DNA from: a virus
Length of the DNA stretch: 21,958 nt
IMG/VR virus record: IMGVR_UViG_3300025137_000344
Span: 1-21,958 of that record
Direction: 5' to 3' (one strand)
Each line of letters begins with the position of its first letter. Position 1 is the first letter of the stretch. Made by a program: the position numbers and the translations under genes. The notes beneath the pieces were generated by a model. It worked only from the letters and a program-made list of their open reading frames with translations. It did not search any database and was not told the DNA's origin. Positions 834 through 21,958 of this stretch are shown here, in pieces.

Positions 834-1034
834 TTACTTGGATGGGCTAAGTGGTAAAGCATCGTCAAAAGTATCTTTATTTGGGTAAACCTCTTTATAA
901 CAAGCTTTACAGACACACATGGTCATAGTTTTCATAGGGTGTAAAGTATATTTAGTCCACACCTTTGTTTTATTTTTACCGAATAATGTAGGGACTATCG
1001 GCTCCCTACATTTATCGCATCGTAAGTGTTTCAA
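834..1034 (-). CDS. small Cys-rich protein, 66 aa, TTG start
   Basis: The frame starts at a TTG (1032-1034) that overlaps the TGA of the 88-residue gene (TTGA), so translation probably depends on re-initiation. The next in-frame ATG would remove the first cysteine pair. Cysteines C6 and C9 (CDKC) and C40, C42 and C45 (CVCKAC) could form a zinc-binding knuckle. The protein is basic in the middle and ends in a short acidic/proline tail. The family was not recognised. It is one of three Cys-pair mini-proteins within about 1.3 kb, a pattern typical of phage early regions that encode host-takeover factors, though that role is only inference here. Confidence 0.65.
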   Translation of the reverse strand: MKHLRCDKCREPIVPTLFGKNKTKVWTKYTLHPMKTMTMCVCKACYKEVYPNKDTFDDALPLSPSK

Positions 1035-1297
1035 CTGACAATCTCTAAGGTTTTAATCTTATTGATATCGTAATTAAGGTCAGTAGCAGTATACAAACCA
1101 CCAGCTAATGCCTCTTTTACTGTTTTACCATTTACGGACTTAACTCTAGCGTTATTGTCCTCACTGGTCACTTTTTTACCTGTTGCTTTTAATTTAGCAT
1201 CAGGGTGAAATTTACCAAACTTCACTTTAGGTGTAGTCTTGGCTATCCTTACTTGGCTTTTCACCGAGTTAAGTTTTTTTGCTGTAGCTTTAGTCAT
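1031..1297 (-). CDS. basic hypothetical protein, 88 aa, with a C-terminal module shared with the 180-aa protein at 5299-5841
   Basis: The first 55 residues are very rich in Lys and Ala with few acidic residues, which suggests nucleic-acid binding or a flexible basic tail. The last 30 residues (VKEALAGGLYTATDLNYDI) are less charged. They align by eye with the end of the 180-residue protein (VLDKGVLTLNDIKYDI): both have a Leu, a Gly, a Thr, an Asp and a terminal YDI at matching spacing. The gene has a strong GGAGGG ribosome-binding site and sits about 45 bases downstream of a candidate promoter (1342-1370). Function is unknown. Confidence 0.75.
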   Translation of the reverse strand: MTKATAKKLNSVKSQVRIAKTTPKVKFGKFHPDAKLKATGKKVTSEDNNARVKSVNGKTVKEALAGGLYTATDLNYDINKIKTLEIVS

Positions 1298-1341: not shown

Positions 1342-1370
1342 ATAATAGGGTACATCAAAAGTAAAGTAAA
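1342..1370 (-). promoter_or_regulatory. candidate sigma70-type promoter P1 for the 88-aa gene block
   Basis: Read on the minus strand, TTTACT (1365-1370) is followed after exactly 17 bases by TATTAT (1342-1347). The start codon of the 88-residue gene lies 45 bases further on. The same -35-like hexamer and the same 17-base spacing recur at 2599-2627 and 4911-4939, which raises confidence in all three. Confidence 0.5.
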
Positions 1371-1409: not shown

Positions 1410-1612
1410 GATGAAGTCAATATGGAGCCCCTCACGAGGAACTTCAACAACTTAATCCGCCACCAAACGAGCGGATAAATATAATTAACCCTCGTGAAGA
1501 GAAAAAGTGTGGCATTGGCTCAGTATAAATACTAAGCACTAGCCACTTGGAAGTCTAGTAGTTTAGAGTCACTTCTCGGGATAACTTCCTAGCACCCGAT
1601 GGCTGACTTTGC
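1410..1612 (-). ncRNA. candidate structured non-coding RNA (three helical domains, two possible pseudoknots)
   Basis: No credible protein is encoded here, yet the stretch is full of helices. Domain 1: 1604-1608 with 1567-1571, then 1595-1599 with 1576-1580; its loop (1583-1589) pairs with 1549-1555, a 7-bp pseudoknot. Domain 2: 1542-1546 with 1509-1513, then 1530-1537 with 1518-1525 around a 4-base loop. Domain 3: a 12-bp helix, 1490-1501 with 1428-1439, enclosing a 6-bp hairpin (1471-1476 with 1455-1460). A 7-bp helix (1440-1446 with 1412-1418) crosses it. Several positions pair as U-G on the minus strand but would be C-A mismatches on the plus strand (in 1518-1537, in 1428-1501 and in the pseudoknot), which fixes the likely strand. 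I recognise no known RNA class. Confidence 0.6.
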
Positions 1613-1765: not shown

Positions 1766-1951
1766 TCATGAAAACAGTTTTACTAAGTTTTCGTATCTCT
1801 CGCTGGGTAAGTGCTGTAAGTGTTTAGGTCTTTGACGTGAGTCTAGGTAATGTCTAGCACCACACTCCTCACACTCCATAACACTTTCTAGTACTCCCTG
1901 TGAATTAATTTTTATACCGTTACGCCAGTCATGTTTACATGCACTATCCAT
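1766..1951 (-). CDS. small zinc-ribbon-like protein, 61 aa
   Basis: The frame could be opened further upstream, but I chose the ATG at 1949-1951. It sits 7 bases after GGAGG and leaves only an 8-base overlap with the preceding gene. The protein has C5 and H7 (CKHDW) and C27 and C30 (CEECG) followed by ARHYLDSRQRP, a C-x-H...C-x-x-C layout typical of a small zinc ribbon. Phages often carry similar 'C.H.W...C..CG' mini-proteins of unknown function. It is the last gene before the structured RNA region. Confidence 0.75.
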   Translation of the reverse strand: MDSACKHDWRNGIKINSQGVLESVMECEECGARHYLDSRQRPKHLQHLPSERYENLVKLFS

Positions 1952-3489: not shown

Positions 3490-3958
3490 TTTCTATTTCT
3501 CCTTCTATGATTTTACCTGCTGGGAGTATCCCGCCAGTATCGTAATACATTTGTTTCATACGCTCTAAAACTTCTTCTTTTGACATAGTGTCAACTCTAT
3601 TGACAGTTAACTCACTACGATTAACATAAAGTCCTGCTGCTTTACCTCTAGCAACTTCCGCAGTTACCGCAGCAGACCATGCACCATTACGTACAGCACC
3701 TTCTCTTATATCTCGCAGATCAGTAAGATGGGTAGCTAAGTTAAGCTCAACTTTATTTGCAGCTTTTTCTTGTAATGCACCTATTCTTTGTTTAACTAGT
3801 GGGTTAGCTTCTGAGTCTAATAAATACCCAGCACGCGTGGCATTTTTCTCACTGTACCCTGCGTCAACTGCAGCATCTTTCTTTTTCATGCCTTTGGCTA
3901 CGTTTTGCGCATACTTCTCTTGTTTAGGAGTTAGTTTTTTTGTTTTTTCTTTTGTCAT
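3482..3958 (-). CDS. terS: terminase small subunit
   Basis: The small terminase subunit recognises the phage packaging site and recruits the large-subunit motor. This 158-residue protein has the expected size. Its N-terminus (residues 9-50) follows the Terminase_2 pattern: LTPKQEKYAQNVAKG, then DAAVDAGYSEKNATRAGYLL, which is the helix-turn-helix DNA-binding segment. A central oligomerisation helix follows, then WSAAVTAEVARGKAAGLY, a segment typical of this family. The acidic C-terminal tail should contact the large subunit. No large subunit is present in the window. The gene instead sits among small early genes. The start ATG follows GGAAAC and overlaps the previous gene by 35 bases. Confidence 0.85.
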   Translation of the reverse strand: MTKEKTKKLTPKQEKYAQNVAKGMKKKDAAVDAGYSEKNATRAGYLLDSEANPLVKQRIGALQEKAANKVELNLATHLTDLRDIREGAVRNGAWSAAVTAEVARGKAAGLYVNRSELTVNRVDTMSKEEVLERMKQMYYDTGGILPAGKIIEGEIESE

Positions 3959-5841: not shown

Positions 5842-6869
5842 TATGCACTCTTAGCGTAATCAATAGCTGTGGTCATAGCTCTAGTTTTAAGACTAGCTCT
5901 AGCTCCAAACCAAGCATTATGCATTGCTGCGTCACGGTCATGTCCCCATTTATGGTCAACCACAAAGGTAACAGCATTCATAGCACCCCACCACGTACCA
6001 GCACTACTTTTTAAATTAGCTCCTGGCTGTAGTTCTAACGCCTCATAAACCTTACTAGGTGCACGTTGAAACTCATCAAGCATAGTAGCACGGGCTAAAT
6101 ATGTTTTTTCAGTTTTACTTTGCTCTAGTAGTTTTTGTTGCATAGCTAGTTTAGGTTGCATAAGGTCAGCAATATAAGAAACAACCGTGTCTTTAGTGTA
6201 TTTTCTACTACATAAAAACTCTGCAGCTTCTTTATACTCTTTCATACGGTTACTTGCTAAACCTAGTGCCTGCTCTGCAGTTACTATAAGGTCTGTATCA
6301 AACGCTTTAGTATGTGCCATTTTAAAATGTGGCTGAGTCTTATCAGCTAAAGCCATACTAAGAGTATTATTACAAACTACCCTAATAGGTGTAAACCTAA
6401 TTTCATTAGACTTACCCCACTCGTGACTGACTGACACAAGTAAATTACCTAAAACTCTATCGTCTCCTGGTAGCGTAAAGCTTTCATCAACTTTAGCTAA
6501 ACCCCATATTTGACGACCGTTTTTTAGTGACCCTGCAGTTTCCATAGTCATTTTACCAGCGTCGGTAAACTTTTTGAAAAATGTAAATGCGTCACGGTTT
6601 TGGGTTGGTATAAACTTTGGTCCACAAGGTCCAAAGACTGTATTATCACTATCGCGTACTAATAGTGAGTGATTAGGTGCCATGATTAAGTCTTTAGACT
6701 TATCAGGGTCAGCGTCATCGTATGTGAATATCTCACGCTTACTTACTGTCCAATCAAGTCCAGCTTCAAGTAACATTTCTTCAGGTGTTAAGTTATTATC
6801 AACTTTAACGCCTAGCCCATGCCAGGGAACTTCCCCTGCATAAGCCATAGTTTCAACGGCTGCTGCCAT
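5841..6869 (-). CDS. DUF932 phage/plasmid-like protein
   Basis: This 342-residue protein matches the DUF932 family: MAYAGEVPWHGLGVKV at the start, KFIPTQNRDAFTFF around residue 85, ETAGSLKNGRQIWGLAK near residue 110, then RFTPIRVVCNNTLSMAL near residue 160, which is the family hallmark. DUF932 proteins occur in many phages and plasmids, and their molecular role is unknown; links to DNA recombination or repair have been suggested. The gene has the best ribosome-binding site of the window (AAGGAGGT) and its own upstream gap with a candidate promoter, so it may be highly expressed. Confidence 0.88.
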   Translation of the reverse strand: MAAAVETMAYAGEVPWHGLGVKVDNNLTPEEMLLEAGLDWTVSKREIFTYDDADPDKSKDLIMAPNHSLLVRDSDNTVFGPCGPKFIPTQNRDAFTFFKKFTDAGKMTMETAGSLKNGRQIWGLAKVDESFTLPGDDRVLGNLLVSVSHEWGKSNEIRFTPIRVVCNNTLSMALADKTQPHFKMAHTKAFDTDLIVTAEQALGLASNRMKEYKEAAEFLCSRKYTKDTVVSYIADLMQPKLAMQQKLLEQSKTEKTYLARATMLDEFQRAPSKVYEALELQPGANLKSSAGTWWGAMNAVTFVVDHKWGHDRDAAMHNAWFGARASLKTRAMTTAIDYAKSA

Positions 6870-6921
6870 AATATACCTCCTTAAAGGTTGTTTTGTTAGC
6901 CTGTATTAGCTAACTACCTTT

Positions 6922-6950
6922 AATATAGTTTAAGTCACTAATGATTAAAA
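6922..6950 (-). promoter_or_regulatory. weak candidate promoter for the DUF932 block
   Basis: On the minus strand, TTTTAA (6945-6950) is followed after 17 bases by TATATT (6922-6927). The -35 is poorer than in P1-P3, but the gap of about 100 bases and the strong ribosome-binding site downstream fit a transcription start. Confidence 0.3.
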
Positions 6951-6968
6951 GGATATTCAAAAAGATCA

Positions 6969-7283
6969 TTAACCAACAGTTGAAGACTCATACTTACCTT
7001 TAATAAGCCTAACGTTGTGATTGTTTAACCAGTTTCTTAACATCGTTGTTCTTTCTGGTGTTGTGAGATCTGGTGCGTTATCAATCAATGCTTTTCTATC
7101 CATATACATCTTGTATCCTTTGTAGTAGTCACCCTTACCTAGATAGTTAAACCTTACAATCTGCCAAACACGTTGTTTACTTATACCATATTTGATGCCT
7201 ATTTCTTCAAGTGTCATCTCACTGTTCATAGTATGCATAAATATGTCAAAATACATCTTATTCTTATCTGTACGTCTACTCAT
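6969..7283 (-). CDS. HTH protein with sigma-region-4-like motif
   Basis: Residues 24-45 (TLEEIGIKYGISKQRVWQIV) form a clear helix-turn-helix of the sigma70 region 4 type ('tl.eIa...gis..RV.QI'), so the 104-residue protein should bind DNA. The rest is basic and helical, with no other sigma regions, so it is more likely a small transcription regulator or sigma-like adaptor than a full sigma factor. It overlaps the polymerase gene by 8 bases, and GGAG lies 8 bases before the ATG. Targets are unknown; the TTTACT-type promoters nearby are possible ones. Confidence 0.75.
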   Translation of the reverse strand: MSRRTDKNKMYFDIFMHTMNSEMTLEEIGIKYGISKQRVWQIVRFNYLGKGDYYKGYKMYMDRKALIDNAPDLTTPERTTMLRNWLNNHNVRLIKGKYESSTVG

Positions 7284-17649: not shown

Positions 17650-18420
17650 TTAGAACGGTGCGTCTTCCGTACCACCAACTTTGTCAGTGGATAGATTGAT
17701 GCCACCTACTTGCTCGGCAAAGTCTTTAGCTGCTTGATAGTACTGCATCTCATTTTGAGATACTTGACCTAATGCAGATATGCCCCAACCAAACCATGTA
17801 CCACGGTCGTTAGACTCTTGTACACAACCTAGTTGATACTTTTGACTAAAACTAGGTGGAGTAAATACTTTATCACCTTGCTTCATCTTAACACTAGCCA
17901 TCATAGAGTTCCACGTACGAGACCTTTTTAATTGTGTTCCCGCCATGGATATCATAGCTGTGTCAAAACCACCGTCTTTATTCATAACCAGTACAAAGTG
18001 TGTAGCTGAAGTTTGAATGTAGTTACCATTTTCTAAAACGTCTTGACCCATTTTATTTCGAGTAGTTGTACTTAAAATATTAGCGTCGTCGTGTTGAGCT
18101 ACTAACCCACCACCAGACTCTCTAGGAGTCCACTCTAAGAATAAACGCTTATAAGCCACAGGTAATACTACCAATGGATTATCGTCGTTATAGAGTACAC
18201 TACTAACAGTATTGATGATATCACCAGTACTAGCACCGTCAACATACTTACCGTCATGCTTATTAACTTCAGGACTCATAGCCTGTAGTATTTTTAAACG
18301 TGGTATAGTAACATCGTCAGCACCTATATTCTCTAGCCCACTACCAGCATCCTCCATAAAGGCTGTTGATACAGCTATGTCAGTTGTTTTATTGTCACTT
18401 GGTTCTTTTTTATTTGTCAT
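17650..18420 (-). CDS. probable ssDNA-binding-type protein with acidic C-terminal tip, 256 aa
   Basis: This resembles a phage protein often found beside primase and polymerase genes: GADDVTIPRLKILQ near residue 34, VVLPVAYKRLFLEW near residue 84, then VLVMNKDGG, LKRSRTWNSMM and QKYQLGCVQE. Beta-rich segments fit an OB-like core. The very end, GGTEDAPF, resembles the acidic SSB tip that recruits partner proteins. The function as an ssDNA-binding protein is an inference from that tip and from position, not from a recognised family motif. It is coupled to the 177-residue gene by an ATGA overlap and followed by the hairpin pair ahead of the primase. Confidence 0.75.
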   Translation of the reverse strand: MTNKKEPSDNKTTDIAVSTAFMEDAGSGLENIGADDVTIPRLKILQAMSPEVNKHDGKYVDGASTGDIINTVSSVLYNDDNPLVVLPVAYKRLFLEWTPRESGGGLVAQHDDANILSTTTRNKMGQDVLENGNYIQTSATHFVLVMNKDGGFDTAMISMAGTQLKRSRTWNSMMASVKMKQGDKVFTPPSFSQKYQLGCVQESNDRGTWFGWGISALGQVSQNEMQYYQAAKDFAEQVGGINLSTDKVGGTEDAPF

Positions 18421-18950
18421 TTTTTAATTATCCTTGTTTTTTGACCTATATAAACATTAAAAGTTTCAAGTGGCAGGTCGTTACCACTCTCAACTTGTTC
18501 CCTCACAAACGCTTTAAGAGTCATAGGCTCTACCCACTTTTTACCGCTGGTAGTAAACCCATCATCTTGAAGGTCTGTTAAGAGCTTTTCGGCATTGACG
18601 TCTTCGTCTCTACCAAAACTTACGGACACAGTATTTTTTATAATATCTCCGTGTCCATTATTCTGTAACCATGTGAAAGCTTCATCACGGTTATGTTCTG
18701 TTATCCTAGCAAAGTAATATGCATTGGTACTGATTTTAGCACCGTTAGATAAAGTAATTTCGCTTAGTCCTACCTCACTTAATAAAGCAGGTATTTCTTC
18801 TTCGGCTAATGCTTTTAATTCTTTTTGTGTAGCTTTTAAACTAGCCTGTTTTTCTTCAACAAGCTCTTCTAAGTTTAACATTTGAGTAGCTTTTTCGGTG
18901 AGCGTTTTTAAAGAGACCTCACTAACCTCTGTTTTTATGTCGTCAAACAT
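18417..18950 (-). CDS. conserved phage protein with N-terminal coiled coil, 177 aa
   Basis: Residues about 15-60 form a charged helix likely to coil (LEELVEEKQASLKATQKE...). After this come IPALLSEVGLSEITLSNG, FTWLQNNGHGDIIKNTVSV near residue 92, and MTLKAFVREQVESG near residue 142. The combination is recurrent in phage replication blocks, where it lies next to primase/helicase or SSB-like genes, but its role is unknown. A structural or loading function at the replication fork is a reasonable guess. It overlaps both neighbours by 4-8 bases, indicating coupled expression. Confidence 0.8.
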   Translation of the reverse strand: MFDDIKTEVSEVSLKTLTEKATQMLNLEELVEEKQASLKATQKELKALAEEEIPALLSEVGLSEITLSNGAKISTNAYYFARITEHNRDEAFTWLQNNGHGDIIKNTVSVSFGRDEDVNAEKLLTDLQDDGFTTSGKKWVEPMTLKAFVREQVESGNDLPLETFNVYIGQKTRIIKK

Positions 18951-19603: not shown

Positions 19604-21049
19604 ATGAACAATTTTATTTACAAGACTAAGCCCTATGACCATCAAATAGAAGCTTTAGTAGAATCATGCGATAAGAAAGAGTATGCTCTATTTATGGAGA
19701 TGGGCTGTGGTAAATCAAAAGTAATTATTGATAACTTTGTTCATTTGTATGGTCAAGGTAAAGTCAATAATATATTAATCGTTGCTCCTAAAGGTGTGTA
19801 TAGTACTTGGGTCAATAAAGAAATACAAACACACTTACCTGACCATGTAGCATACGATATGGTTAAGTGGACTGCAGGACATACACAGAAATTTCTTAAA
19901 GATTTAGAAAAGTTATTTGAATATGATGATAACTTAAAAATATTGGTTATGAATATAGAAGCTTTTAGTACTAAGAAAGGTTGTCAGTATGCTAATAAAT
20001 TCATACAAGCTAACAAAACCATGTTTATTATAGATGAAAGCACAACTATAAAAAACCCTTCCGCTAAACGCACTATCAGTTGTGTAAGGTTAGGTAAGTA
20101 CGCACACTACAGAAGGATACTAACAGGCTCACCTATTACTAAGAGTCCATTAGATTTATATAGTCAGTGTATGTTTTTAGATCCAGCATTATTAGGGTTC
20201 AGTAGTTACTTTTCATTTAGAGCAAGGTACGCAGACTTAAAAGAAATGACTGGTAACGGTAGAACTTTTAAAATGGTGACAGGTTATAAAAATTTAGAAG
20301 AGTTGAATGAAACTTTAGGTAAGTTTAGCCACAGAGTTTTGAAAAAAGATTGTTTAGATCTACCAGAAAAAATATATATACGTCGTGAAATACAAATGAC
20401 ACCTGAACAAACTAAAGCATACAAAGAGTTACAGAACTTTGCAGCTACACAATTGAAAAATAATAAGCTTGTTACTATAAATCATATTATGACTCAGATA
20501 ATACGTCTACATCAAATTTCATGTGGATTCATAGGGACTGATGACGGTAGTATTACCGAGTTATCTAACCAAAGAGAGTCAGAATTGTCCTCTATTTTAG
20601 AGGAAACAGACGGTAAAGCAATCATTTGGGCTAATTATCGACACGACATAGTAAAAATAGAAAAACTACTAAGTGATGCCTATGGTCCAGAATCAGTGGG
20701 TACTTACTACGGTGACGTACCTCAAGAACGTAGAGAGTTTGTTATTAATGAGTTTCAAAACCCTGATAGTCCTATGAGATTTTTTGTAGGGAACACTCAG
20801 ACTGGTGGTTATGGTATTACGTTAACAGCAGCAAGCACAGTAATATATTACAGTAATAACTACGATCTTGAAAAACGTTTACAATCTGAAGACCGTGCTC
20901 ATCGTATAGGTCAGACTAATAAAGTAACTTACATTGATATCGTTTGTGAAAAAACAGTAGATGAAAAAATAGTGAAAGCATTACGTAAAAAACAATCTAT
21001 AGCTAGTACAATCCTTGGTGAAGATAACTTAAAAGATTGGTTAACTTAA
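19604..21049 (+). CDS. SNF2-like SF2 helicase/ATPase
   Basis: The 481-residue protein has the SNF2-type motifs in order: YDHQIEAL (11-18) as Q-like motif, Walker A MEMGCGKSK (31-39), LIVAPKGVYSTW (58-69), IIDESTTIKNPSAKR (142-156) with DEST in place of DEGH, LTGSPI, a C-terminal RecA domain with IIWANYRHD and YYGD, and EDRAHRIGQTNKVTYID, the arginine-finger motif VI of the SNF2 group. It should translocate on double-stranded DNA with ATP. Phage members of this group are found with replication genes and may help fork restart or branch migration. It is the only plus-strand gene, divergent from the replication block. Its stop interlocks with that of the repeat protein. Confidence 0.93.
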   Translation: MNNFIYKTKPYDHQIEALVESCDKKEYALFMEMGCGKSKVIIDNFVHLYGQGKVNNILIVAPKGVYSTWVNKEIQTHLPDHVAYDMVKWTAGHTQKFLKDLEKLFEYDDNLKILVMNIEAFSTKKGCQYANKFIQANKTMFIIDESTTIKNPSAKRTISCVRLGKYAHYRRILTGSPITKSPLDLYSQCMFLDPALLGFSSYFSFRARYADLKEMTGNGRTFKMVTGYKNLEELNETLGKFSHRVLKKDCLDLPEKIYIRREIQMTPEQTKAYKELQNFAATQLKNNKLVTINHIMTQIIRLHQISCGFIGTDDGSITELSNQRESELSSILEETDGKAIIWANYRHDIVKIEKLLSDAYGPESVGTYYGDVPQERREFVINEFQNPDSPMRFFVGNTQTGGYGITLTAASTVIYYSNNYDLEKRLQSEDRAHRIGQTNKVTYIDIVCEKTVDEKIVKALRKKQSIASTILGEDNLKDWLT

Positions 21050-21958
21050 CCTCTTCCCACCCTTCTGCCACCACCTCTTAAAACGTCAGGAGAAACCATA
21101 GCTTCTATACCGCTAATTTGTCTCGGTGCTTTAGTTGCTGGGGGTGGTGCAACACTACTGATACCAGATATTTGTTCTTGAAGTTTAGCTATCATTTCTC
21201 GTAATCCTGCATCATCATAACTAGGAGAAGGTTCTCGTTGATTTTGTTTTTGCTCTATAGAAGTTATCATATCTCTTAAAGCTGTATCATCATAGATAGG
21301 TCTATTTTCTAAATCACCTTTGGTAGCGAAATCACCGAAGTCTGGTAAGTTTAAAGCTGATGGATCAAAGCCAGGTCTATTAGCGTTTTGTTCTATCATA
21401 TTTCTTAAAGCTGTGTCATCATATCCTGGACGTTGACCTATAGAAGTTATTTGATCTCTTAGTGCCGTATCATCATAGATAGGTCTATTTTCTAAATCAC
21501 CTTTGGTAGCGAATTGATTAGGATCAAAAGATGGAATTTTACCAATCATATCTCTAATTTCACTATCATCATAGCCTGGGATATTACCAATCATATCCCT
21601 AATTTCACTATCATCATAGCCTGGGATACTGCCTATACCTTCTTTGTTTTTACCTATAAGGTTTCTAAGTTCGCTGTCATCGTATTCGTATGATGGTGGA
21701 ATTTTACCAATCATATCTCTAATCTCTGAGTCATCATAACCTGGGATATTACCTATAAGGTCTCTAATCTCTGAGTCATCATAACCTGGGATGTTACCTA
21801 TACCTTCCCTGTTTTTACCTATAAGATCTCTAATCTCTGAGTCATCATAACCTGGGATGTTACCTATAAGATCTCTAAGTTCGCTGTCATCAAAACCTGG
21901 GATATTACCTATACCTTCCCTGTTTTTACCTATAAGATCTCTAAGTTCGCTGTCATCA
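21046..21958 (-). CDS. repeat-built protein (YDDSEIRDLIGNIPG units), N-terminus beyond the window
   Basis: The frame is open from the stop at 21046-21048 to the right edge, at least 303 residues. Eight DDSE(I/L)R units (15 residues each, or 22 with a KNREGIGNIPG insert) come first. They are followed by YDDTALR units and two near-identical copies of FATKGDLENRPIYDDTALRD. Each unit looks like a short amphipathic helix plus a turn, possibly an extended coiled or fibrous rod. The C-terminal tail is Pro/Gly/Arg-rich. Such Asp-rich repeat proteins occur in phage virions (fibre, tape or scaffold), but no specific match is certain. The in-frame ATG near 21714 is probably internal. It converges with the SNF2-like gene. 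Confidence 0.8.
   Translation of the reverse strand, partial: DDSELRDLIGKNREGIGNIPGFDDSELRDLIGNIPGYDDSEIRDLIGKNREGIGNIPGYDDSEIRDLIGNIPGYDDSEIRDMIGKIPPSYEYDDSELRNLIGKNKEGIGSIPGYDDSEIRDMIGNIPGYDDSEIRDMIGKIPSFDPNQFATKGDLENRPIYDDTALRDQITSIGQRPGYDDTALRNMIEQNANRPGFDPSALNLPDFGDFATKGDLENRPIYDDTALRDMITSIEQKQNQREPSPSYDDAGLREMIAKLQEQISGISSVAPPPATKAPRQISGIEAMVSPDVLRGGGRRVGRG
21538..21958 (-). repeat. in-frame 45/66-bp tandem repeats
   Basis: DDSE-containing units alternate at 45 and 66 bases (15 and 22 residues), so the unit pair repeats every 111 bases. The array opens in order 22, 15, 22, 15, 18, 22, 15, 15 residues when read from the right edge. Units to the right are nearly identical at DNA level, while those to the left have drifted, which suggests recent duplication at the N-terminal side. 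The repeat is protein-coding, not CRISPR. Confidence 0.8.

Follow-up and report, generated by a model that had tools for sequence, protein, structure and literature searches.

Several described RNAs frame the locus considered here. The mRNA leader of T4 gene 32 folds into a short H-type pseudoknot that precedes the gene for its own binding protein; phi29 carries a small prohead RNA with loop pairing; and GOLLD and ROOL are large, ornate, phage-associated RNAs found by comparative genomics. On the bacterial side, the suhB/alpha-r14 and CcsR 'cuckoo' small RNAs of alphaproteobacteria present, in simple hairpin loops, an unpaired C/U-rich motif that can pair with Shine-Dalgarno sequences. The structures of GOLLD and ROOL RNAs have been described (PMC12286853).

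Here, we analyzed a stretch of 21,958 nucleotides (the window; IMG/VR record IMGVR_UViG_3300025137_000344, positions 1–21,958) from an uncultivated marine phage whose DNA polymerase is nearest to those of 023Pt_psg01, DSL-LC04 and the pelagiphages HTVC023P and HTVC027P (48–52% identity). Pelagiphages are reported to be very abundant (PMC12753301). The minus strand of the window carries members of two multi-pseudoknot RNA families that covary strongly and match no catalogued family: element B (1398–1501, ~105 nt) and element A (1611–1760, ~150 nt). No match to either was obtained in Rfam, among GenBank phages or in the tested bacterial genomes. With Rfam 15 at the gathering threshold, no match was recovered in the window or in 13 relatives, only weak, unrelated sub-threshold ones, in keeping with the sequence-only reading, which had recognized no known class. 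BLASTN searches of 50,697 GenBank phages with the gap and with the regions of A and B returned chance matches or nothing, and HTVC023P, HTVC027P, 023Pt_psg01 and DSL-LC04 contained no convincing A or B. A pattern built on the core of A had a single match across 84,980 bacterial and archaeal species, which was not recovered by the A model and was discarded. Among open-licence papers, terms for non-coding RNA were absent from PMC9599517 and PMC12753301; our claim of newness covers the RNA families A and B, not phage non-coding RNA as such.

Compared with the systems above, A, and B in three contigs, resemble the T4 gene 32 leader as phage pseudoknots near a ribosome-binding site, but both are larger, lie before unrelated genes and are sometimes apart from any leader. 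Like GOLLD and ROOL, they are phage-associated structured RNAs recovered by comparative genomics, although they are far smaller and have no Rfam match. As small phage RNAs with loop pairing they recall the phi29 prohead RNA, yet they show no Rfam resemblance to it and occupy gaps between early genes. B, a candidate small RNA, further parallels the suhB/alpha-r14 and CcsR RNAs in its conserved unpaired motif rich in C and U, whereas those RNAs are bacterial with simple hairpin loops and B is a double pseudoknot found in phages, without an Rfam match. Both elements would be new targets for structural work and for mining metatranscriptomes, and they might expose a level of RNA-based control that phages exert over hosts difficult to study.

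The elements lie in the gap (1298–1765) between a 61-aa gene from the ORF list (1766–1951, minus strand), upstream of A, and an 88-aa gene (1031–1297, minus strand), downstream of B, whose product has no match in PHROG or Pfam. This gap holds a single ORF of at least 45 aa, on the plus strand and ending at 1342, and 1343–1765 contains none; ARAGORN found no tRNA or tmRNA genes in the window. The sequence-only reading had proposed that 1410–1612 forms a single structured RNA of about 200 nt, with six named helices and tertiary pairings and with U-G pairs specific to the minus strand. All six pairings do form, and on the minus strand they are complete (12/12, 8/8, 5/5, 5/5, 7/7 and 7/7 bp); the plus strand reaches just 10/12, 7/8, 5/5, 5/5, 6/7 and 6/7, dropping pairs in four of the six, as that strand assignment had anticipated. 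The minus strand of this interval also folds better than its dinucleotide-shuffled controls (-67.4 versus -50.4 kcal/mol; z -4.27; 0 of 200 shuffles as low), with z -2.42 for the plus strand. In a scan of the window in 436 windows of 200 nt, some coding stretches folded equally low or lower (e.g., 18501–18700, minus strand; z -7.5). Because coding windows score equally well, we rejected folding energy as the main proof; by itself it is weak evidence here, and the homologues decide.

Searching with the 88-aa protein yielded 27 IMG/VR loci, whose upstream regions proved to be built of separable modules. B is always present, a hairpin (1509–1546) occurs in three lineages, the pseudoknot at 1549–1608 in one, and A is separate and also found with other neighbors. 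Since these modules come and go independently, 1410–1612 is not one RNA, and that reading was rejected; what stands of the earlier proposal is an undescribed, pseudoknotted RNA structure on the minus strand. The homologues also exposed parts that had been missed, namely two helices of B (P2 and PK2 below) and the whole of A. The layout downstream of A differs: a 94–98-aa gene separates A and B in some contigs, B follows A directly in others, and the lineage of the window has extra parts between the two.

B is represented by 22 distinct homologues and matches its model at 90 bits in the window. Its helix P1 (12 bp; 1490–1501 with 1428–1439) and its first pseudoknot PK1 (1440–1451 with 1407–1418) extend or coincide with pairings named by the sequence-only reading (1490–1501/1428–1439 and 1440–1446/1412–1418), both of which are upheld by compensatory changes across homologues: 6 of 7 inner pairs of P1 and all 12 pairs of PK1 have changed on both sides. 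PK1 forms 10 of its 12 pairs in the window and 12 of 12 in L006. Helix P2 (1471–1476 with 1455–1460) is paired in 95.6% of cells, with four pairs changed on both sides. Its loop supplies the 5' strand of PK2 (1461–1468 with 1398–1405), which is paired in every sequence (100%), with three pairs changed on both sides; PK2 is B's second pseudoknot, distinct from the second one named earlier. Read 5' to 3', the order is P1a, a GUUA joint, the P2 hairpin with its 10-nt loop, PK1a, P1b, a CUCC joint, PK1b, a lone A residue and PK2b. B adopts an H-type pseudoknot in which the loop of an inserted hairpin pairs with the 3' end.

To quantify covariation of B, we aligned 19 distinct sequences with MAFFT, blind to structure, and counted four helices (P1, P2, PK1 and PK2; 33 pairs). 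Standard pairs filled 92.2% of 626 pair cells versus 78.0% in shuffled controls, both-side changes occurred in 115 cells versus 42, and the covariation score was 0.556 versus 0.290, with slid controls at or below 0.155; none of 500 shuffles reached the observed paired share, both-side changes or score. The covariation that the sequence-only reading left to be checked is therefore present. RNAalifold recovered PK1 and P2 unprompted, and an independent mutual-information ranking placed four structure pairs in the top 10 of 5025. On the minus strand, G-U cells outnumber A-C cells by 63 to 11, so B is read from that strand. Mean identity is 57% and little unpaired sequence is conserved; the unpaired CUCC in the loop joining P1 and PK1 (1424–1427) is fixed nonetheless, occurring once in 19 of 19 homologues and in three out-of-sample sequences. 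Its flanking bases are variable and thus point to no single target. Collectively, these data show that B is a conserved structured RNA of the minus strand with two pseudoknots.

The out-of-sample sequences came from a covariance model that treated P1 and P2 alone as pairs, run on 67 additional contigs that had been retrieved through another gene. It recovered three new B sequences (L156, L163 and L166). New base pairs appear in these, with PK1 (10–11 bp), PK2 (8 bp), P2 (5–6 bp) and CUCC all retained. A search of IMG/VR with a PK2-type DNA pattern returned known members plus 31 chance loci in which P2 has 0–2 bp. At the 88-aa-gene locus, the end of B invariably lies a few tens of bases ahead of a promoter-like site (19 sequences), which in the window is TTTACT-17-TATTAT (1342–1370, minus strand) and aligns at the same place in homologues. 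A T-rich stretch lies 3' of PK2, and no clear terminator was found after B. In the three new contigs, B instead follows a 2OG-oxygenase gene at a distance of ~330–420 nt and immediately precedes the Shine-Dalgarno sequence of a 103-aa gene, the product of which we judged by eye to be related to the 115-aa protein at 2185–2532 of the window. In this setting B resembles a portion of a 5' leader, an arrangement that also fits action in cis. B is therefore not bound to one gene, as the promoter-like site intervenes in 19 sequences and is absent in three, where the gene differs.

Between B and A, the window carries two further parts. Hairpin C (1509–1546, minus strand; z -4.5) combines GUGGC/GCCAC with GCUUAGUA/UACUGAGC and includes the previously proposed 1518–1525/1530–1537 helix; it persists in three lineages (the window, L006 and L004), where the base changes are compatible with pairing. 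Pseudoknot D (1549–1608, minus strand; z -1.1) pairs as the sequence-only reading had it; L004 lacks its 1549–1555/1583–1589 pairing and both 5-bp stems, which are confined to the window and the near-identical L006, and this one-lineage pseudoknot may be real. The pseudoknots at 1407–1451 and 1549–1589 use near-identical pairing words (GAAGUU with GACUUC); given these shared words, they could in principle swap partners.

Element A is a second, independent pseudoknotted RNA family beside B, with a model match at 1608–1764 (101 bits). Its 10-bp helix P1 (1751–1760 with 1678–1687) crosses the rest of the structure, and in most homologues at least 6 bp form at a similar place in unrelated sequence. 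P3 pairs 1703–1710 with 1619–1626 (97.5% paired). P6 (1735–1739 with 1719–1723), whose loop contains a P2 strand (1726–1731), is paired in 100% of 34 sequences, with two of five pairs changed on both sides; first suspected by eye, it was picked by a mutual-information scan as column pair 36–48. Across 34 homologues and helices P2, P3, P4 and P6, 96.8% of cells are paired, both-side changes occur in 227 cells versus 82.5 in shuffles, and the covariation score is 0.667 versus 0.230, a stronger signal than for B. The helices covary freely while the unpaired stretches GGCGNAAUC, AUGUGUGUGA and CUAAU are near-invariant across lineages. For both elements the structures are secure, and the functions are not.

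The core pattern of A matched 42 IMG/VR stretches (other loci include L041 2522–2715, L060 6120–6277 and L248 4604–4751), and its range spans contigs in which the oxygenase gene has ~58% identity to the window's own. The genes that follow A are unrelated: a 94–98-aa gene, a gene that we take from its sequence to encode a serine recombinase, a 48-aa ORF and zinc-ribbon-like genes. A ends 0–20 nt before the start codons of several of these. In the zinc-ribbon lineage, the end of its P2 carries GGAG just before the start codon, a position that would occlude the downstream ribosome-binding site; this placement is not seen in every lineage. Promoter-like sites flank A on both sides in L041, and in L157 A lies directly before one. 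Given where its P2 strand lies in several lineages, A probably serves in part as a translational leader.

Taking both elements together, our preferred explanation, to which we assign a probability of about 0.35, is that B is an autonomous small RNA acting in trans through CUCC and that A is an independent module, probably also a leader. B would be made from the early transcript or from its own promoter, and its knotted fold would release or protect it as an autonomous RNA. Acting in trans, it would offer the unpaired CUCC to Shine-Dalgarno sequences of the GGAG type, and such pairing would lower translation of host or phage mRNAs; the P2 strand of A, which in several lineages holds or abuts the ribosome-binding site of whichever gene follows, would make A a translational leader. 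We favor autonomous RNAs over elements dedicated to one gene, since the neighbors vary on both the upstream and the downstream side. The constancy of CUCC in the P1-PK1 joint of all B homologues suggests a candidate Shine-Dalgarno-pairing site; against the trans reading, B lacks a clear terminator after it, and the motif is four bases long and could instead serve protein binding or a tertiary contact. The packaging and sponge roles earlier raised for the interval RNA are not supported.

Almost equally likely is a role in cis at the ends of mRNAs. B, and A with it, would then be boundary elements that protect ends from exonucleases or set the translation of a neighbor, with no trans target, as might be expected of elements that are always intergenic and on the coding strand, with B directly before a Shine-Dalgarno sequence in three contigs and A close to start codons, its P2 strand carrying GGAG in the zinc-ribbon group. 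This fits less well with the promoter-like site that separates B from the next gene in 19 of 22 homologues, and with the positions of A in L041 and L157, which are not constant relative to its neighbors. Rather unlikely, in our estimate, is the joint proposal that HTVC023P-related marine phages carry an exchangeable set of intergenic multi-pseudoknot RNAs (A, B and perhaps the blocks E and F described below), in which A would represent a new RNA-switch class that governs the translation of various genes, and B, as a knotted small RNA, would redirect translation during infection by binding Shine-Dalgarno sequences. We regard a ligand-binding or self-cleaving RNA, above all for A, as less probable still: the near-constant unpaired core amid covarying helices and the partial overlap of P2 with ribosome-binding sites in one group would suit a riboswitch, but for a single metabolite, genes as unrelated as those after A would be out of the ordinary, we recognized no conserved cleavage site, and B has little conserved unpaired sequence.

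That B is instead a DNA-level or transcription element, such as a terminator or promoter-adjacent site, seems very improbable; its place directly before the promoter-like site in 19 sequences and the T-rich stretch after PK2 would be accounted for, whereas the both-side changes that keep RNA pairs, the preference for G-U over A-C on one strand, and the occurrence of B without that promoter, before another gene, would not. Least credible of all is a fold arising by chance from composition or left over from a coding gene. Some coding windows do match or beat its folding energy, yet the covariation of B and A exceeds all 500 shuffles (in score and pairs kept) and every slid control, chance matches to the PK2-type DNA pattern lack P2, and no open reading frame is shared; covariation refutes this reading for both elements.

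Several further features of this phage group were observed. Several transcription units are preceded by a promoter-like motif that recurs in the group, GCTTTACTTTACTT(T/A)TGAT and then TATAAT-like boxes, with sites at 1342–1370 (minus strand) in the window, at 3931 and 5928 in L010, at 3907 and 6175 in L016, and at 3929 in L024. Upstream of B, conserved intergenic blocks E and F (L163 ~6845–7040 and 7085–7150, with matching places in L156 and L166) each follow a promoter-like site and look like further structured RNAs. Within the 177-aa gene at 18417–18950 of the window, 18501–18720 (minus strand) folds far better than its shuffles (z -5.8), and 21046–21957 (minus strand) encodes a repetitive protein with many DDSEIRD(M/L)IG repeats.
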